Shown one piece after another: positions 1,960-13,485 of a stretch of 20,380 nucleotides of DNA; within the stretch, counting starts at the first letter, position 1, and every line of letters begins with the position of its first letter. Below the pieces are notes generated by a model. It ran no database searches. It was not told the origin of the DNA and saw only the letters and a list, made by a program, of their open reading frames with translations. Position numbers and translations under genes: made by a program. The stretch spans positions 1 to 20,380 of IMG/VR virus record IMGVR_UViG_3300028840_004269; one strand, written 5' to 3'. This stretch comes from a virus.

Positions 1960-3729
1960 ATGTCAAATAGTGTAAATCCATTAAAATACACAAGTAGAAC
2001 TTTTAATACAATATTGAATGATATAAATAACAATGATGAGTTGGTGGATACTCCTAATTGGTATAAAAATTTAATAGCAGGATTGGGTGATCTATTAAGT
2101 ATGTGGGAAAATGCGAATGCTAATCAAGCTCACTTGAGAACATCCTTTACCAGACAGGCAACGGCTGATTTACTTGAATTAATTGATTATTTTTTATCTC
2201 CTAAGTCCACAGCATCGGGTACATTGTTATTTTATTTAGATGCTGATTCAGTCTCATTTCCTAAGAATATTTTATTGGGTAATTTGGCAGCAAGATCGGA
2301 GGGTACATTAGAAGTTTCATCTCGAAAGTATGAAGCAAGATCAGCAGTAACGGTTAGTGCAACTTCAGAGGGTTTTACTACAGATTTTGCTACTGATAAT
2401 AATTTAGATGTAGCCAGAGTTTATACGACTGGTGAAAAAGTCAGGGTATCGACTGACAATACTTTACCTTCTCCATTACAGGCAAGTACAGATTATTGGG
2501 TAATAAAAATATCAGATACTGAAATAAGGCTAGCCACAACTTTGGCAAATGCTTATGCAGGTACAGAAATTACTTTAACTGATGATGGTACAGGTAATCA
2601 TACAGTAGCTTTATATTCAACTCAGGTAACCTGTTATCAACAGGAGACAATTGACCAGTCTATAATAGGCACAAGTGATGGTACAACAGAATGGCAAAAG
2701 TTTGATTTACCGGATTTAGATGTATTGGAAGATACTTTGATTATTACTATTAATAGTGTCCAATGGACAAGGGTTGATACTTTAGTTGATTCTCTTCCTA
2801 CTGATACCCATTATTTATTAAGATACAATACTGATAATTCGTCTTATATTTTATTTGGTAATGGAACATATGGTGATATTCCTGCCAATTTTGATATATA
2901 TGCTGATTATGCCACTGGTGGTGGATTAGATTCAAATATTAGCACAATAGGTAAAATAAATGTTTATGCGGGTTCAGATGGTGATATATTAGCAGTTTCA
3001 AATCCATCTACATTTACAGGTGGATCCGAAGAGGAAAGTCTTGCATCTGCTAAAGTACTTGGACCACTATTATTAAAAGCTAGAAATAGGTTTGTTACAG
3101 TTGATGATGGTGAATCTCTTGCATTGGATTTTGGTGGAATAGCAAGAGTAAAAGTCAATAAAAATGTCTATGGATTATTATCATGTCAAGTACCAATAGT
3201 ACCAAATGGTGGTGGAACACCTTCATCAGCTCTAAAATCTTCTCTTCAGACTTATTTAATAGATAGAACAATTTTAGAAACAGTTGATGTTCGGGTAGTT
3301 GATCCAACATATAATACTATTACTCCAGTTGTTACTGTAAAGATTGATTCAGGAGCATTATGGTCAACAGTACAAGGATATGTAATATTAGCATTAAGGC
3401 TTCAATTTTCTGAAAGAGGATATGAGATACAGCAAGATTACATATCTAATGGTATAGAGAGTGCTGTCACTATTATAAATGCCGAATGGAGTACTTCATT
3501 TAGTTCAAGTGACTATAATCAAATAGCAACTTTGTTAGATGAAGACAACTTTGAACCAACTGATTTTGGTGTAGATTTTCAGGAATCCGATGTTTTAGGA
3601 TATATAGATACAAATGTTGAAGGTGTTGACTATTTAACATGGTCAAGTCCGGCATTTCCAATAACACAAGCTGATGATGAGATTACTACTGATAATGTCT
3701 TAATTGGTAATGTAACTCAAATTCCTTAG
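1960..3729 (+). CDS. Baseplate J-like wedge protein with an inserted beta module
   Basis: A 589-residue protein. The C-terminal region, from about residue 353, has the Baseplate_J order: 'LLLKARNRFVTVDDGESLAL', then 'GGIARVKV', a Pro/Gly loop, and a helical segment before 'VDVRVVDPTYNTI'. This is the gp6/gpJ wedge component that forms the baseplate periphery in contractile tails. Residues about 140-216 look like an insertion rich in Thr and Asp ('LPSPLQASTDYWVI' ... 'LTDDGTGNHTV'), a beta module I know from assorted phage tail and structural proteins. The start is set by GGGAGG with an 8-base spacer. Baseplate J is confident; the role of the inserted module is not known. Confidence 0.85.
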   Translation: MSNSVNPLKYTSRTFNTILNDINNNDELVDTPNWYKNLIAGLGDLLSMWENANANQAHLRTSFTRQATADLLELIDYFLSPKSTASGTLLFYLDADSVSFPKNILLGNLAARSEGTLEVSSRKYEARSAVTVSATSEGFTTDFATDNNLDVARVYTTGEKVRVSTDNTLPSPLQASTDYWVIKISDTEIRLATTLANAYAGTEITLTDDGTGNHTVALYSTQVTCYQQETIDQSIIGTSDGTTEWQKFDLPDLDVLEDTLIITINSVQWTRVDTLVDSLPTDTHYLLRYNTDNSSYILFGNGTYGDIPANFDIYADYATGGGLDSNISTIGKINVYAGSDGDILAVSNPSTFTGGSEEESLASAKVLGPLLLKARNRFVTVDDGESLALDFGGIARVKVNKNVYGLLSCQVPIVPNGGGTPSSALKSSLQTYLIDRTILETVDVRVVDPTYNTITPVVTVKIDSGALWSTVQGYVILALRLQFSERGYEIQQDYISNGIESAVTIINAEWSTSFSSSDYNQIATLLDEDNFEPTDFGVDFQESDVLGYIDTNVEGVDYLTWSSPAFPITQADDEITTDNVLIGNVTQIP

Positions 3730-8410: not shown

Positions 8411-8440
8411 TACCCCCCCGAAATGGGGGGGTATTTTTTT
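8411..8440 (+). terminator. Strong intrinsic terminator ending the lysis/late transcript
   Basis: A perfect 9-bp stem, TACCCCCCC (8411-8419) with GGGGGGGTA (8425-8433), closes a GAAAT loop and is followed by seven T's (8434-8440). It stops + strand transcription between the convergent gene ends. The minus-strand side has only AATTC after the stem, so it is a weaker terminator for the opposite operon. Confidence 0.9.
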
Positions 8441-8919: not shown

Positions 8920-9009
8920 CTTGTGACTCCTTAAGATATGTGATGCCATGGTATCGGACACCGGTGGAGGCTGTTTCGTTGGTATCTCTTCGGGGTTTTA
9001 CTGGCTGTT

Positions 9010-9038
9010 TAAATATTGTAAGCCTGTCCGATATACAA
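9010..9038 (-). promoter_or_regulatory. Possible leftward promoter for the two minus-strand genes
   Basis: On the minus strand TTGTAT (9038-9033) is followed after 17 bases by TATTTA (9015-9010), which gives a start near 9003 and a leader of about 84 bases before the ATG at 8919. The hexamers are imperfect. The -35 overlaps one copy of the CTTGTATA motif that recurs twice in the rightward leader, so it could be co-regulated. Confidence 0.35.
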
Positions 9039-9096
9039 GTATAAAAGGAGTAAGGTATTCCACCTAACGGTCTTGTTATATGAATATAAAAAGTGC

Positions 9097-9125
9097 TTGA
9101 CAAGGAAGGGGGGATATGTTATAAT
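9097..9125 (+). promoter_or_regulatory. Perfect-consensus sigma70 promoter, rightward
   Basis: TTGACA (9097-9102), a 17-base spacer and TATAAT (9120-9125) match the bacterial housekeeping consensus at all twelve positions and at the optimal spacing. The start is expected near 9132, about 290 bases before the first gene. The strength and host-type sequence suggest the main immediate-early promoter for the 9419-11375 genes, read by host RNA polymerase before the phage sigma-like proteins are made. Confidence 0.88.
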
Positions 9126-9133
9126 GGTCTTAC

Positions 9134-9150
9134 GAATACAGAAAGTATTC
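9134..9150 (+). promoter_or_regulatory. Operator-like inverted repeat at the early transcription start
   Basis: GAATAC and GTATTC form a perfect 6-bp inverted repeat around AGAAA, placed just after the -10 element so that it covers the expected start site. This is a good position for a repressor. It could also act only as a 5' hairpin of the transcript. Confidence 0.45.
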
Positions 9151-9286
9151 AAGCTTGTATAGTATATGGTTGTTTAGTACGAAATAATATTTCCAGAGAA
9201 CGTCCCGACGGGTTATAGAATTATTCAAGCTTGTATATTCAAAACGGTATAAACACAAAGGGTATTGACTAACGCATGTTTAGTAC
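9146..9286 (+). repeat. Paired direct repeats in the early leader
   Basis: A 16-base element containing the palindrome CAAGCTTG (TATTCAAGCTTGTATA) occurs identically at 9146-9161 and 9222-9237. A second element, TGTTTAGTAC followed by C/G-AAA, occurs at 9171-9180 and 9277-9286. The order A-B-A-B with changed spacing suggests a duplicated control unit. The reverse complement of the CTTGTATA half is found at 9032-9039. Likely uses are protein binding sites or origin iterons. Confidence 0.6.
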
Positions 9287-9418
9287 CAAAGCACTTGACT
9301 CGGACGCTTTCTTGTATTTTTTTTTAAGTAGGGATTGAGAGGGACACTAACTCCACCTCAGACCCACCAGAGAGCCAAAAGACGCTCCAAAATTTAATAA
9401 GCCTTAAGGAGGGCAACT

Positions 9419-9784
9419 ATGAATAACACAACTAAATCTAATACTAACAAAGCTAACACCGTACCAACTAAACCTTTCAAGACTGCAAAGAAGTCATCTA
9501 GCAAGATGATCAACCCTAAGAAAGCGAAATCCAACAAAGCGAAATTAACCAAGTCTGAAAAAAGACTACAGCGTGAAACTAGACTAGCCAAAATTGGCAA
9601 ATATCTATCTACTCTTAAAAAAGGAACTGAACTTACTATTACTGAACTTGCCAAAGCTGTGAAAATGGATGTATTTGTAGTGAGTGGTTACACATCATAC
9701 TTCCAAGATCAAGGTGTTCTATTTACACATAAAAGGTACAATAAAGATACCAAACGTATGGGATCAATAGTTGAAATTAGATAG
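9419..9784 (+). CDS. Lys-rich winged-helix-like DNA-binding protein (early)
   Basis: A 121-residue protein in two parts. Residues 1-55 are almost only Lys, Ser, Thr, Asn, Ala and Pro, like a histone-H1-type or other nucleic-acid-binding tail. Residues about 58-121 resemble a winged helix: 'RLAKIGKYLSTLKKG', then 'LTITELAKAVKMDVFVVSGYTSYFQDQGV' as the helix-turn-helix, then a basic hairpin 'THKRYNKDTKRMG' as the wing. It is the first gene after the strong early promoter, so a role in early regulation or in host transcription or DNA takeover is likely. It uses more C-ending codons than most of the window. AAGGAGGG gives the start. Its TAG stop shares its G with the following ribozyme. Confidence 0.75.
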   Translation: MNNTTKSNTNKANTVPTKPFKTAKKSSSKMINPKKAKSNKAKLTKSEKRLQRETRLAKIGKYLSTLKKGTELTITELAKAVKMDVFVVSGYTSYFQDQGVLFTHKRYNKDTKRMGSIVEIR

Positions 9785-9849
9785 TCGAAATCCCCCTCCT
9801 TAGGGGGATCTACCAGAATTGACCTACTGGTACTGATGAGACAGGTCAA
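9784..9849 (+). ncRNA. Type II hammerhead ribozyme 1
   Basis: All core parts are present in type II order. Stem II 5' strand GTC is at 9784-9786 and the core GAAA at 9787-9790. Stem III is ATCCCCC (9790-9796) with GGGGGAT (9803-9809). The cleavage-site C17 is 9810. Stem I is TACCAG (9811-9816) with CTGGTA (9827-9832). CTGATGA is at 9833-9839 and stem II 3' strand GAC at 9840-9842. In addition, loop I TTGACCT (9819-9825) pairs perfectly with AGGTCAA (9843-9849), the loop-I tertiary contact expected for a fast natural hammerhead. Cleavage is predicted between 9810 and 9811. The element starts on the last base of the upstream stop codon and ends 10 bases before the next Shine-Dalgarno site. Confidence 0.93.
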
Positions 9850-9873
9850 ATTTCGTTCTAAGGAGAACTTTAT

Positions 9874-10056
9874 ATGAAAAACATTACTATGAAATTGGAT
9901 GAATCAACAGGTATCCTCACCATCACGATTGACACAACAGCCAGATTCGGTCAGTCCAAGTCAGGAAAGACAACCATCGTTGCTAGTACGAGTGGGAATG
10001 TTCCTATAGCTGAAGATTCACCAATAAAAATCGGCATCAATTGCTATACAAAATAG
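9874..10056 (+). CDS. Small conserved phage protein with SKSGKT motif, 60 aa
   Basis: A 60-residue beta-rich protein: 'MKLDESTGILTITID', then 'RFGQSKSGKTTIVASTSGNVPI' (residues about 24-45), then 'IKIGINCYTK'. Small proteins with this exact layout ('FG.SKSGKT.I.AST.GNV......IG.N.Y') are, from memory, widespread in phages and of unknown function. SGKT is not a P-loop here because the surrounding fold is too small. AAGGAG sits 8 bases before the ATG. The gene is flanked on both sides by hammerhead ribozymes, so it should end up on its own short mRNA. Its TAG stop shares its G with ribozyme 2. Confidence 0.8.
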   Translation: MKNITMKLDESTGILTITIDTTARFGQSKSGKTTIVASTSGNVPIAEDSPIKIGINCYTK

Positions 10057-10120
10057 TCGAAATCCCCCCTGTTGGGGGATCTATTGGGATTGACCCACCA
10101 ATACTGATGAGACAGGTCAA
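10056..10120 (+). ncRNA. Type II hammerhead ribozyme 2
   Basis: Same architecture as ribozyme 1. GTC is at 10056-10058 and GAAA at 10059-10062. Stem III is ATCCCCC (10062-10068) / GGGGGAT (10074-10080). C17 is 10081. Stem I is TATTGG (10082-10087) / CCAATA (10098-10103). CTGATGA is at 10104-10110 and GAC at 10111-10113. Loop I TTGACC (10090-10095) pairs with GGTCAA (10115-10120). Compared with ribozyme 1, three stem I pairs change on both strands (C-G to T-A twice, A-T to G-C once) while the core stays identical. The conserved structure is therefore under selection. Cleavage is predicted between 10081 and 10082. Confidence 0.93.
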
Positions 10121-10144
10121 ATATTACGCCTTAAGGAGGGCTAT

Positions 10145-10315
10145 ATGACAAAATATGAAATTTTTTACGTTGATACAGGCAAAACTGTTTATTTAACATA
10201 CAAACAATGTTGTGATCAGTTCGGTGAGGAGGAGTTCAAAGAGATCTTATGTGGATATGCTCCTCATATCGTAGCAGTTGAGGTTAATATGACAGATTTG
10301 GATTCCACTTCATAA
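10145..10315 (+). CDS. Hypothetical 56-aa acidic protein
   Basis: An ATG at 10145 follows AAGGAGG at a 5-base spacing and opens a 56-codon frame that ends in TAA at 10313-10315. The product begins 'MTKYEIFYVDTGKTVYLTY', has a Cys pair at residues 22-23, a Glu run at 28-30, and an acidic end ('DLDSTS'). No family is recognised. The excellent ribosome binding site, the position just downstream of ribozyme 2 and the same spacing pattern as its neighbours support a real gene. Confidence 0.72.
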   Translation: MTKYEIFYVDTGKTVYLTYKQCCDQFGEEEFKEILCGYAPHIVAVEVNMTDLDSTS

Positions 10316-10328
10316 ATGGATATCATAA

Positions 10329-10368
10329 TCGAAATTATAATCCCTCACCATCATGGTGGGGGAAATTT
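10329..10368 (+). other. Stem-loop after the third early gene, hammerhead-like remnant or attenuator
   Basis: After a TCGAAAT that matches the entry of the two ribozymes, an 8-bp stem CCCTCACC (10342-10349) / GGTGGGGG (10355-10362) closes loop ATCAT. AAATT and AATTT flank it and can extend the pairing. There is no stem I and no CTGATGA, so it cannot self-cleave by the hammerhead mechanism. The lack of a T run makes full termination unlikely. Confidence 0.5.
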
Positions 10369-10386
10369 GTATTAAGGAGGTGTTAG

Positions 10387-10587
10387 ATGAACCATGATGA
10401 CCAATTGCTATTAATGGTATTACTGGATAAAGTAATATCATCTGCTCATCAAAATTACTGTACCCATGGTAATTATAAGGTGAACATAAAGTATAAATTT
10501 TCTAAGATGGAAATAGATCAACTAGACAAGATCTATTATGAGATTAGTCAAAATTTCATTAACAAACGCAAAAAAGATATGTCTTAA
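10387..10587 (+). CDS. Hypothetical 66-aa protein
   Basis: A small, mainly helical protein with a hydrophobic N-terminal helix ('LLLMVLLDKVI'), a 'HQNYCTHGNYKVNIKYKF' strand region and a Lys-rich C-terminus. No family is recognised. AAGGAGG stands 7 bases before the ATG, and the gene is co-directional with the early cluster. It ends 11 bases before the next gene. Confidence 0.68.
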   Translation: MNHDDQLLLMVLLDKVISSAHQNYCTHGNYKVNIKYKFSKMEIDQLDKIYYEISQNFINKRKKDMS

Positions 10588-10598
10588 GGAGGACACAA

Positions 10599-11375
10599 AT
10601 GTCGAGATTAAAAGAAAGCGAATTAAAAGAATTAGCTCCTGCTATATTCGCACAGGAGCCATCAAGTCGAGTGTCGGATAAGTATAATTTTGTACCGACA
10701 ATCGATTTAATTAAGGAGATTGGCAAACGTCAATTTTTCCCTGTATCTGCAGAACAGCAGGCTACTAAAGATCCTATAAATGCCTTATATCAAAAGCATG
10801 TAGTTCGATTTCGATGGGTACATGATTTGGATAAGGATAAGAAGGATGTATTTGAGTACATTTTGGTTAACAGCCATAATGCCAGATCCAGTCTTCGATT
10901 TTATATGGGTGCACATGTGCAGGTGTGTAGTAATGGTTTGGTATTTGGTACGATAGAAGATTCATTCAGGATTGTACATATACCAGAGTATGATGAGATG
11001 ATAGAATCCAGTATAGATGAAATGTTTGAAAAGTCTTTACGTACCAAGCAGGAAATCAAGGATGCAAAGACTATAGTATTAACTGAAATTGAAAAAGATA
11101 AATTTGCACGTGAAGCTCATCAGTTGAGATATAATAAAAAGTCATTGGTCAAACCTTCTAATTTATTGGAGATACGCAGGCCAGAAAATGAGAAACCTAC
11201 CCTGTGGAATGTGTTTAATGTTTTGCAGGAGAATTTAATAGTTGGTGGTGTGACCTATGAAATGTCAAATGGGACACATAAATACCCTGACACCACAACA
11301 GGATTGACTAATATAGATCGAAAAATATCTATCAATGTCGCACTATGGGACATGATGCTAAAAAGACTTAAATAA
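10599..11375 (+). CDS. DUF932-like phage/plasmid protein
   Basis: A 258-residue protein that fits the DUF932 family, found in many phages and plasmids but of unknown function. Recognisable parts are the entry 'SDKYNFVPTIDLIKEI' (residues about 25-40), 'FFPVSAEQQ', and the central 'ILVNSHNARSSLRFYMGAHVQV' followed by 'CSNGLVFG' (about 87-117), which is the family core. The C-terminal helices end in 'INVALWDMMLKRLK'. It is soluble, with no membrane segment. AAGGAGG at 8 bases sets the start. An intrinsic terminator follows at once, closing the early operon. Confidence 0.78.
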   Translation: MSRLKESELKELAPAIFAQEPSSRVSDKYNFVPTIDLIKEIGKRQFFPVSAEQQATKDPINALYQKHVVRFRWVHDLDKDKKDVFEYILVNSHNARSSLRFYMGAHVQVCSNGLVFGTIEDSFRIVHIPEYDEMIESSIDEMFEKSLRTKQEIKDAKTIVLTEIEKDKFAREAHQLRYNKKSLVKPSNLLEIRRPENEKPTLWNVFNVLQENLIVGGVTYEMSNGTHKYPDTTTGLTNIDRKISINVALWDMMLKRLK

Positions 11376-11383
11376 TCCAAAAT

Positions 11384-11410
11384 CCCCCCAGCAATGGGGG
11401 GTTTTCTTTA
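11384..11410 (+). terminator. Intrinsic terminator after the early operon
   Basis: CCCCCC (11384-11389) pairs with GGGGGG (11396-11401) around AGCAAT and is followed by TTTTCTTTAT. It starts 8 bases after the upstream stop codon. A weaker version of the 3' U tract may allow some read-through into the sigma-like gene, for which I see no separate promoter. Confidence 0.85.
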
Positions 11411-11430
11411 TAAATATATAGGAGATAGTC

Positions 11431-12087
11431 ATGGATAAGGAGTTGTTATTAAACGCAATTGCCAACATACAACTAAATATCTCAACATCTGAAGACGAAT
11501 CCTTAATAGTCAAGGAATTTGAAAATAGGTATCGACCTCACAAGATAGATAACTATATATATGATCCCGATGATTTGAAGTCTGAATATCTAATAGCCTG
11601 TTGGAATGCAATACCAAGAGCTAAATTGGATGTAGGGGATCCTATAGCCTTTTGTGTCAGACGTGGCAAGGGTGCAATGCTTGATTATTATAGGAAGGTT
11701 AGTACACAAAGATTAGTCAAAATTTGTGAATCATGTAATACTGTGGTGGCTTATGATAGGAGGAATGTCTACTGTAAGTCATGTGGTGAAGAGTATATTT
11801 CACTTATGAAAGAAGATACAGTACATGAATTTGTTGAGATACCGGATATGGGTCAAAATTTTGAAGATACAGTAGTTATAGATTTAGTATTGGAGAATTT
11901 AATAGATTATTTAGTCGAATGTTCTACTATTTGTAATCGTGATAGAATTTTGGCTATTAAAGCTATTAAAGATCGAATAGATTTCTATACTTATGCTATA
12001 TCTCAAGGTCTAAAATCCAAGCAAGCCAAATCTCTTGAGGAAAGAATATTATCTGTAATTAGAGACTCATATTTATTTACAAAATGA
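11431..12087 (+). CDS. Sigma-70-like factor with internal zinc ribbon
   Basis: A 218-residue protein. Residues about 44-92 resemble sigma region 2: 'PDDLKSEYLIACWNAIPR', then 'FCVRRGKGAMLDYYRK' (the 'A...I...I.D..R' helix). A zinc ribbon follows with Cys99, Cys102, Cys115 and Cys118 (C-x2-C-x12-C-x2-C). The C-terminal part (about 175-214) has helices with 'YAISQGLKSKQAKSLEERILSVIR', a region-4-like helix-turn-helix. It is most likely a phage sigma factor that redirects host RNA polymerase to later promoters, or a regulator built from the same parts. The ribbon between the domains is not typical of sigma factors. It follows the early operon and lies before the purZ leader. Confidence 0.65.
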   Translation: MDKELLLNAIANIQLNISTSEDESLIVKEFENRYRPHKIDNYIYDPDDLKSEYLIACWNAIPRAKLDVGDPIAFCVRRGKGAMLDYYRKVSTQRLVKICESCNTVVAYDRRNVYCKSCGEEYISLMKEDTVHEFVEIPDMGQNFEDTVVIDLVLENLIDYLVECSTICNRDRILAIKAIKDRIDFYTYAISQGLKSKQAKSLEERILSVIRDSYLFTK

Positions 12088-12378: not shown

Positions 12379-13485
12379 GTGAAGGTTAAGAACGTAGATA
12401 TTTGTGTGGGTTGCCAATTTGGCAGTGAGGCCAAGGGATTAGTTGCATCGTGGTTAGCTAAAATCAATCATTATGATTGGTTAGTGTCAGTAAATTCGGC
12501 TCAAGCCGGTCATACTGCTCCATTGGAAAAAGATGGTAAAGTGGTTGAGTATATTGTCACAAGGCAGTTACCATCAGCTTGTATTACAAATCGTAATGCT
12601 AAAATCTATATAGGAGCCGGTGCAGTTATAAATCCACAGGTATTGATTGCTGAGATTATATACTTAGAAAGTGTTGGGATTCCTGTATCTGAAAGACTGT
12701 ATATTTCTGCAGGAGCGACTTTAATAACATCATGGGACTTAGATGGTGAAAAGGAATTAAGGTTAACAGATAGGTTAGGTTCAACATCTGAAGGTGTAGG
12801 ATATGCATTATCAAGGAGGGCATTAAGACAAGCTCAAACTGTGGGTAGTACAAAACCTGATATATCATTGATACTTAATAGTCATGGTATTGAATCGTTT
12901 ACAATTGTAGGTGATAGATTTACCCACGAAATAATTGAAGGTGATGTATTTATAGAGGGATCTCAAGGTTATGGGCTGTCGGTATTTAATAGTTACTATC
13001 CTTATACAACCAGTAGGGATACAACTGCGAGTGCTTTTCTTTCTTATGCAAAGTTACCACCACTTAATATCAGGGATATATATGGTGTATATAGAACTTT
13101 TCCAATTCGGGTAGGTGGGAATTCAGGCCAAATGTATGAAGAGATTGAATGGGAAGAAATAGATAAGATATCGGGATATCAAGATATTAAGGAATATACG
13201 ACTGTAACAAGTCGATTGAGGAGAGTCGGTATGTGGGATGCAGGGTTAGCATATCAGGCTACTCAAATAAATGGGGTAAATAAACCTATATTGACATTTG
13301 CTAATTATTTGTGTAAGGATTATGAGAATGCTAAAACATTTGAAGATTTGCATGCTATAGATCGGGATGCTTATACTCAAATAGTAGAAATGAGTGAAGA
13401 TATAGGTATTCCATGGTTTGCAATTTCGACTAGTAAAGAGGGTGGATTTATAATGGATGGTGATTCGTCCGATAGAATAATATAA
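12379..13485 (+). CDS. purZ: PurZ: N6-succino-2-amino-2'-deoxyadenylate synthetase
   Basis: A 368-residue homologue of adenylosuccinate synthetase (PurA). PurZ joins aspartate to dGMP using ATP or dATP, and host PurB then gives dZMP, the precursor of 2-aminoadenine DNA. The first loop reads 'GCQFGSEAKGL' (11-21), where PurA has 'GTQWGDEGKGK'; Ser16 replaces the catalytic Asp13, the known PurZ change. His45 ('QAGHT') matches PurA His41. Further aligned blocks are 'STSEGVGYALSRR' (135-147), 'EGSQGYGLSV' (193-202), 'PYTTSRDTTA' (208-217), 'RVGG' (244-247) and 'SRLRRVGMWD' (278-287). It is shorter than PurA (about 430), as PurZ proteins are. The start is GTG with AAGGAGG 7 bases upstream; it lies behind a structured leader and heads the replication operon. 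Confidence 0.88.
   Translation: MKVKNVDICVGCQFGSEAKGLVASWLAKINHYDWLVSVNSAQAGHTAPLEKDGKVVEYIVTRQLPSACITNRNAKIYIGAGAVINPQVLIAEIIYLESVGIPVSERLYISAGATLITSWDLDGEKELRLTDRLGSTSEGVGYALSRRALRQAQTVGSTKPDISLILNSHGIESFTIVGDRFTHEIIEGDVFIEGSQGYGLSVFNSYYPYTTSRDTTASAFLSYAKLPPLNIRDIYGVYRTFPIRVGGNSGQMYEEIEWEEIDKISGYQDIKEYTTVTSRLRRVGMWDAGLAYQATQINGVNKPILTFANYLCKDYENAKTFEDLHAIDRDAYTQIVEMSEDIGIPWFAISTSKEGGFIMDGDSSDRII

Follow-up and report, generated by a model that had tools for sequence, protein, structure and literature searches.

Tandem pseudoknotted type II hammerhead ribozymes between consecutive small genes of a phage operon

Type II hammerhead ribozymes, including the form in which loop I makes a pseudoknot with the 3' flank of stem II, have already been described (Perreault et al., 2011; PMC3088659). 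In that study, clusters of hammerheads flanking single prophage genes were found 'on many occasions' and three such clusters were tested. Tandem arrays cleaved in vitro, one of them also in E. coli, and among 18 consensus hammerheads tested 14 were active and four inactive. For HHphage, the hammerhead of haloviruses HF1 and HF2, the 5' end of a transcript was mapped close to the cleavage site (PMC3088659). Self-cleaving ribozymes were later reported to be enriched close to other ribozymes (PMC10085705, 2023). The roles of prokaryotic hammerheads were considered an open question in a 2017 review (PMC6155905).

The intercistronic arrangement of phage hammerheads is thus real and of a kind known since 2011. 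It recurs in the window, the whole stretch of 20,380 nucleotides analyzed here, where two coding-strand hammerheads flank a single phage gene in the manner of tandem phage arrays. With one strong promoter, five small genes, two ribozymes and a terminator, this pair is a clean and compact test case.

Anatomy of the ribozymes and their operon

The whole window was scanned with cmscan against all of Rfam. Exactly two matches to any family exceeded the gathering score, both on the plus strand and both to RF02276 (Hammerhead_II; cut-off 37 bits). A custom hammerhead descriptor, composed of stem I, stem II, stem III, core and pseudoknot, assigned scores of 26 to ribozyme 1 and 24 to ribozyme 2 and never exceeded 18 in 400 Markov-shuffled windows searched on both strands. 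The original prediction had placed two pseudoknotted type II hammerheads one after the other in a small operon, each between neighboring genes, with an Rfam type II covariance search as a check. This reading held up, as did its details down to the base: a spacing of 272 nt between the copies, identical cores with a C at the cleavage site, three stem I pairs exchanged on both sides and the pairing of loop I with the stem II flank.

Table 1. Features of the operon, the two ribozymes and their surroundings
Feature	Coordinates	Strand	Remarks
Terminator-like hairpin with T tail	8411..8433	+	End of preceding structural and lysis block; consensus match only
Sigma-70-type promoter TTGACA-17-TATAAT, extended -10 TGn, 12/12	9097..9125	+	Presumed operon promoter; consensus match only
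Gene 1	9419..9784	+	121 aa, no family; UAG stop (9782-9784) runs into stem II of ribozyme 1
Type II hammerhead ribozyme 1	9783..9850	+	RF02276 43.5 bits, E 4e-6; predicted cleavage after C9810
Stem III of ribozyme 1	9790..9809	+	8 bp; predicted 3'-terminal hairpin of gene 1 message
Stem I of ribozyme 1 with loop I (9817-9826)	9811..9832	+	Predicted 5' end of gene 2 message
Pseudoknot of ribozyme 1	9819-9825 with 9843-9849	+	7 bp, UUGACCU:AGGUCAA
Shine-Dalgarno AAGGAG of gene 2	9860..9865	+	10 nt past pseudoknot of ribozyme 1
Gene 2	9874..10056	+	Conserved small phage protein (60 aa); UAG stop (10054-10056) runs into stem II of ribozyme 2
Type II hammerhead ribozyme 2	10055..10121	+	RF02276 40.3 bits, E 3e-5; predicted cleavage after C10081
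Pseudoknot of ribozyme 2	10090-10095 with 10115-10120	+	6 bp, UUGACC:GGUCAA
Shine-Dalgarno AAGGAGG of gene 3	10133..10139	+	12 nt past pseudoknot of ribozyme 2
Gene 3	10145..10315	+	56 aa, no confident family
Hairpin of 10 bp, weak T tail	10341..10363	+	Third intercistronic gap; no CUGAUGA
Gene 4	10387..10587	+	66 aa, no family
Gene 5	10599..11375	+	258 aa, DUF932 (PF06067); last operon gene
Terminator-like hairpin CCCCCC-AGCAAT-GGGGGG, TTTTCTTT tail	11384..11401	+	Presumed operon end; consensus match only

Both copies have the topology of the family, in which stems I and III are closed by loops and the ends open in stem II. Stem II is GUC/GAC in each (9784-9786 with 9840-9842 in ribozyme 1, 10056-10058 with 10111-10113 in ribozyme 2), the GAA core lies at 9787-9789 and 10059-10061, CUGAUGA at 9833-9839 and 10104-10110, and the NUH site reads AUC in both. 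Stem III is one pair shorter in ribozyme 2 (7 bp). Stem I comprises 6 bp in each copy, UACCAG/CUGGUA versus UAUUGG/CCAAUA, so that three of six pairs are changed on both sides and none is broken, with the core left unchanged. The loop I pseudoknot, present in most RF02276 members, is found in both copies. It is near certain that both elements are type II hammerheads, and self-cleavage of both is likely because published members of the class cleave (14/18).

Folded alone, the stem III hairpin is stable (-13.4 and -12 kcal/mol in the two copies); it was rejected as a terminator because the plus strand carries no U tract. In copy 1, a nested folding program, which is unable to draw pseudoknots, favors the helix between loop I and the flank, the expected behavior for such pseudoknotted RNAs. 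Across the family, loop I pairs with its own flank over at least 5 bp in 96 of 116 hammerheads, compared to 35 +/- 3.6 when flanks are swapped. As judged from these sequences, the type II hammerhead pseudoknot is under selection.

Such conservation bears on the idea that the two elements are relics, that is, leftovers, inactive or neutral, from a mobile ribozyme-bearing element or from recombination between modules, that do nothing for the phage. The differing identities of flanking genes among phages and the patchy occurrence of the ribozymes would suit this idea, but three double-compensated stem I pairs, two intact cores, two retained pseudoknots and the exact fit between stop codon and Shine-Dalgarno sequence make it highly improbable.

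Genes 1 and 2 are separated by ribozyme 1, which fills the gap, and genes 2 and 3 likewise by ribozyme 2; both ribozymes lie on the coding strand of an operon whose five genes lie between the promoter and the second terminator-like hairpin. Genes for a recombinase, a primase-helicase and a dUTPase follow on its 3' side. Calling the operon early, as the original prediction did, is a reasonable inference because of the 12/12 promoter, the bracketing hairpins and the location before the replication genes. A third, degenerate ribozyme was considered for the gap 10316-10386 and rejected: CGAAAU and a hairpin are present, but CUGAUGA is absent and the gap gave no Rfam hammerhead match even at E 5, which leaves a plain hairpin. 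With CGAAAU ahead of it, this stable hairpin (10341-10363) has the look of a replacement for a third ribozyme or of what is left of one.

Two genes downstream of the operon deserve mention. One encodes a 218-aa protein (11431-12087) with a sub-threshold match to sigma-70 region 2 and a possible zinc ribbon (CxxC...CxxC), which could be a phage sigma-like factor. The other (12379-13485) codes for an adenylosuccinate synthetase that is PurA-like and of the phage type (PF00709; phrog_1211); enzymes of this type mark phages in which 2-aminoadenine may replace adenine.

Tandem arrays and the position of hammerheads between genes

The original prediction had regarded two hammerheads in a row as unusual. 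This view is contradicted by the prophage clusters of Perreault et al. (2011), by the reported enrichment of ribozymes near one another (PMC10085705) and by the hammerhead collection assembled here. The 18-base segment CTGATGAGACAGGTCAAA is present in 20 viral contigs, 18 of which have RF02276 matches, many of them two to four, and a broader sequence pattern yielded at least 120 stretches. Arrays of two to eight hammerheads occur in 26 of 125 clusters from viral contigs and cellular genomes; seeds for the collection were picked by pattern, so these proportions describe the sample and not all phages. One contig holds the longest array of this collection, with seven Rfam matches and eight hammerheads by the custom descriptor, and others have six or seven. 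In this longest array (L106, 8178-11286), the eight type II hammerheads are distributed over about 3.1 kb, mostly between consecutive small genes. A second array (L107, 8649-11139 in minus-strand coordinates) comprises five hammerheads, among which stem II occurs in four different versions, each self-compensated, and is good natural material for tests of assembly in cis versus across copies.

A point missed by the original prediction is that both ribozymes overlap the stop codon of the upstream gene: the G of its UAG is the first nucleotide of stem II. The frequency of this arrangement was determined by counting open frames of at least 40 codons whose stop ends on stem II nucleotide 11.3 or up to 7 nt before it. 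Such a tight stop codon accompanies 92 of 123 distinct viral hammerheads (75%) compared to 86 of 2,460 positions drawn at random from these loci (3.5%). An independent collection from cellular genomes gave 25 of 45 (56%) compared to 22 of 900 (2.4%). The distance peaks exactly at the overlap with stem II (26/123 viral, 8/45 genomic). By a crude gene caller, the median distance from stop codon to ribozyme is 1-2 nt and that from stem II to the start of the Shine-Dalgarno sequence 14-15 nt, a space that the pseudoknot nearly fills.

Most of this tight packing is accounted for by ordinary genome compactness plus the length of the ribozyme, because viral intercistronic gaps have a median of 88 nt with a hammerhead versus 24 nt without. 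Whatever the cause, the cut in the tight-stop cases lies outside the coding frames, and part of the ribozyme is necessarily covered by a ribosome that terminates there. The positional rule, observed in viral contigs and again in cellular genomes, limits the function to intercistronic cutting that leaves all reading frames intact and turns ribosome interference into a specific testable claim. With respect to the open-licence literature searched, this rule is what the present analysis adds; it may have been published elsewhere.

The most interesting version of cutting follows from this geometry. A ribosome terminating on gene 1 or gene 2 would cover the GAA core and the 5' strand of stem III and delay cleavage until its departure, so that the cut would report on, and react to, upstream translation. 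The ribosome footprint extends about 9-10 nt past the A-site codon and would reach about position 9794, within stem III of ribozyme 1, and the stop codon lies at stem II nucleotide 11.3 or at most 7 nt upstream for 75% of the viral and 56% of the genomic hammerheads. The same packing is nevertheless produced by compactness, hammerhead gaps being longer by roughly one ribozyme length, and about a quarter of the family has no tight stop codon. Translation gating in the window is accordingly rather unlikely, and the general proposal that phage type II hammerheads are placed for translation-gated RNA cutting, uncoupling neighboring genes in operons, is equally doubtful.

Proposed cleavage of the operon transcript and the case of gene 2

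The preferred reading, with a rough probability of 0.7, is that the two ribozymes cut the polycistronic early mRNA co-transcriptionally into single-gene units with structured ends. Acting in cis, they would sever the nascent five-gene transcript at the two predicted sites and release independent messages for gene 1, for gene 2 and for gene 3 together with genes 4 and 5, each retaining its own stop codon. A GC-rich stem III hairpin would be left at the 3' end of the gene 1 and gene 2 messages, where it may protect the end, and each downstream message would begin with a 5'-hydroxyl and a base-paired, pseudoknotted leader, its own Shine-Dalgarno sequence just after. The benefit to the phage might be that stability and translation of adjacent small early genes become unlinked.

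Cutting in cis can be set against the formation of RNA circles. The 271-nt segment between the two cuts, containing all of gene 2, could self-ligate into a circular message: stem I, CUGAUGA and the 3' strand of stem II from copy 1 and the 5' strand of stem II, GAA and stem III from copy 2 make up a whole hammerhead. Since stem II is GUC/GAC in both copies, this chimeric ribozyme can form in the window itself. Ligation of excised segments would need matching stem II strands, and in the small number of neighbor pairs that differ in stem II, cross-copy pairing is broken in six of ten and own pairing is full in eight of ten; cross-copy pairing is thus not kept across arrays, and the mismatches favor cutting in cis. 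Circular or spliced products were sought by Perreault et al. (2011; PMC3088659) and none was detected. Circularization in the window is a slim possibility from which the comparative evidence leans away.

Cutting in cis has to be reconciled with what is seen at gene 2, which is small but genuine and has seven homologues (39-60% identity) in other viral contigs. None of the seven has a hammerhead beside it. The idea that the ribozymes are there because of gene 2 was therefore rejected, and the finding counts against the cutting model, as these homologues manage without ribozymes. Behind four of the seven, a strong hairpin (z -5.9, -5.1, -4.1 and -1.8) lies between the genes, in the place of ribozyme 2. 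These hairpins, of 12-21 bp, stand right behind the gene in L279, L283, L284 and L285. A stem-loop behind hammerhead-free homologues fits a need for a 3'-terminal stem-loop at this gene and weakly suggests that stem III supplies such a stabilizing hairpin to the gene 2 message. The gene families that recur beside hammerheads form only a few small groups, which argues against a gene-specific function.

Relatives of the phage were searched for at several levels. Positions 9000-12000 gave no blastn match among isolated phages, the 71-base ribozyme alone gave chance-level matches only, and no close relative was found by way of genes 1 and 5 and the primase-helicase. The baseplate gene (1960-3729) matched two contigs, L286 with 100% and L287 with 65% identity, near the contig end in both. 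L286, an IMG/VR contig, probably holds the neighboring part of the same phage; neither contig reaches the operon region, and no hammerhead or gene 5 homologue was found in them. Among isolates, the best match of the baseplate protein is to Leptospira phage LE4/LE3 (33%), and LE4 has no type II hammerhead.

Comparison with known hammerhead systems

Viroids and retrozymes resemble the locus in having paired ribozymes around a segment whose excision and ligation are conceivable in principle. They are unlike it in that they move or replicate as whole elements by way of RNA circles, whereas the window pair is located in a DNA phage operon. HHphage of haloviruses HF1 and HF2 likewise lies a few nucleotides ahead of an early phage gene's start codon, but it is a single copy with a variant core in a virus of an archaeal halophile (PMC3088659). 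The prophage clusters of Clostridium scindens, Azorhizobium caulinodans and Agrobacterium tumefaciens (ardA) share with the window the serial coding-strand ribozymes between consecutive genes and the lack of conservation of the flanking genes (PMC3088659, Fig. 3); the window differs in its genes and in belonging to an uncultivated phage. To the RF02276 type II hammerhead (PMC3088659) the likeness extends to the permuted order, the core, the cleavage-site C, the short stem II and the pseudoknot between loop I and the 3' flank; nothing substantial differs, and the stem sequences are the window's own.
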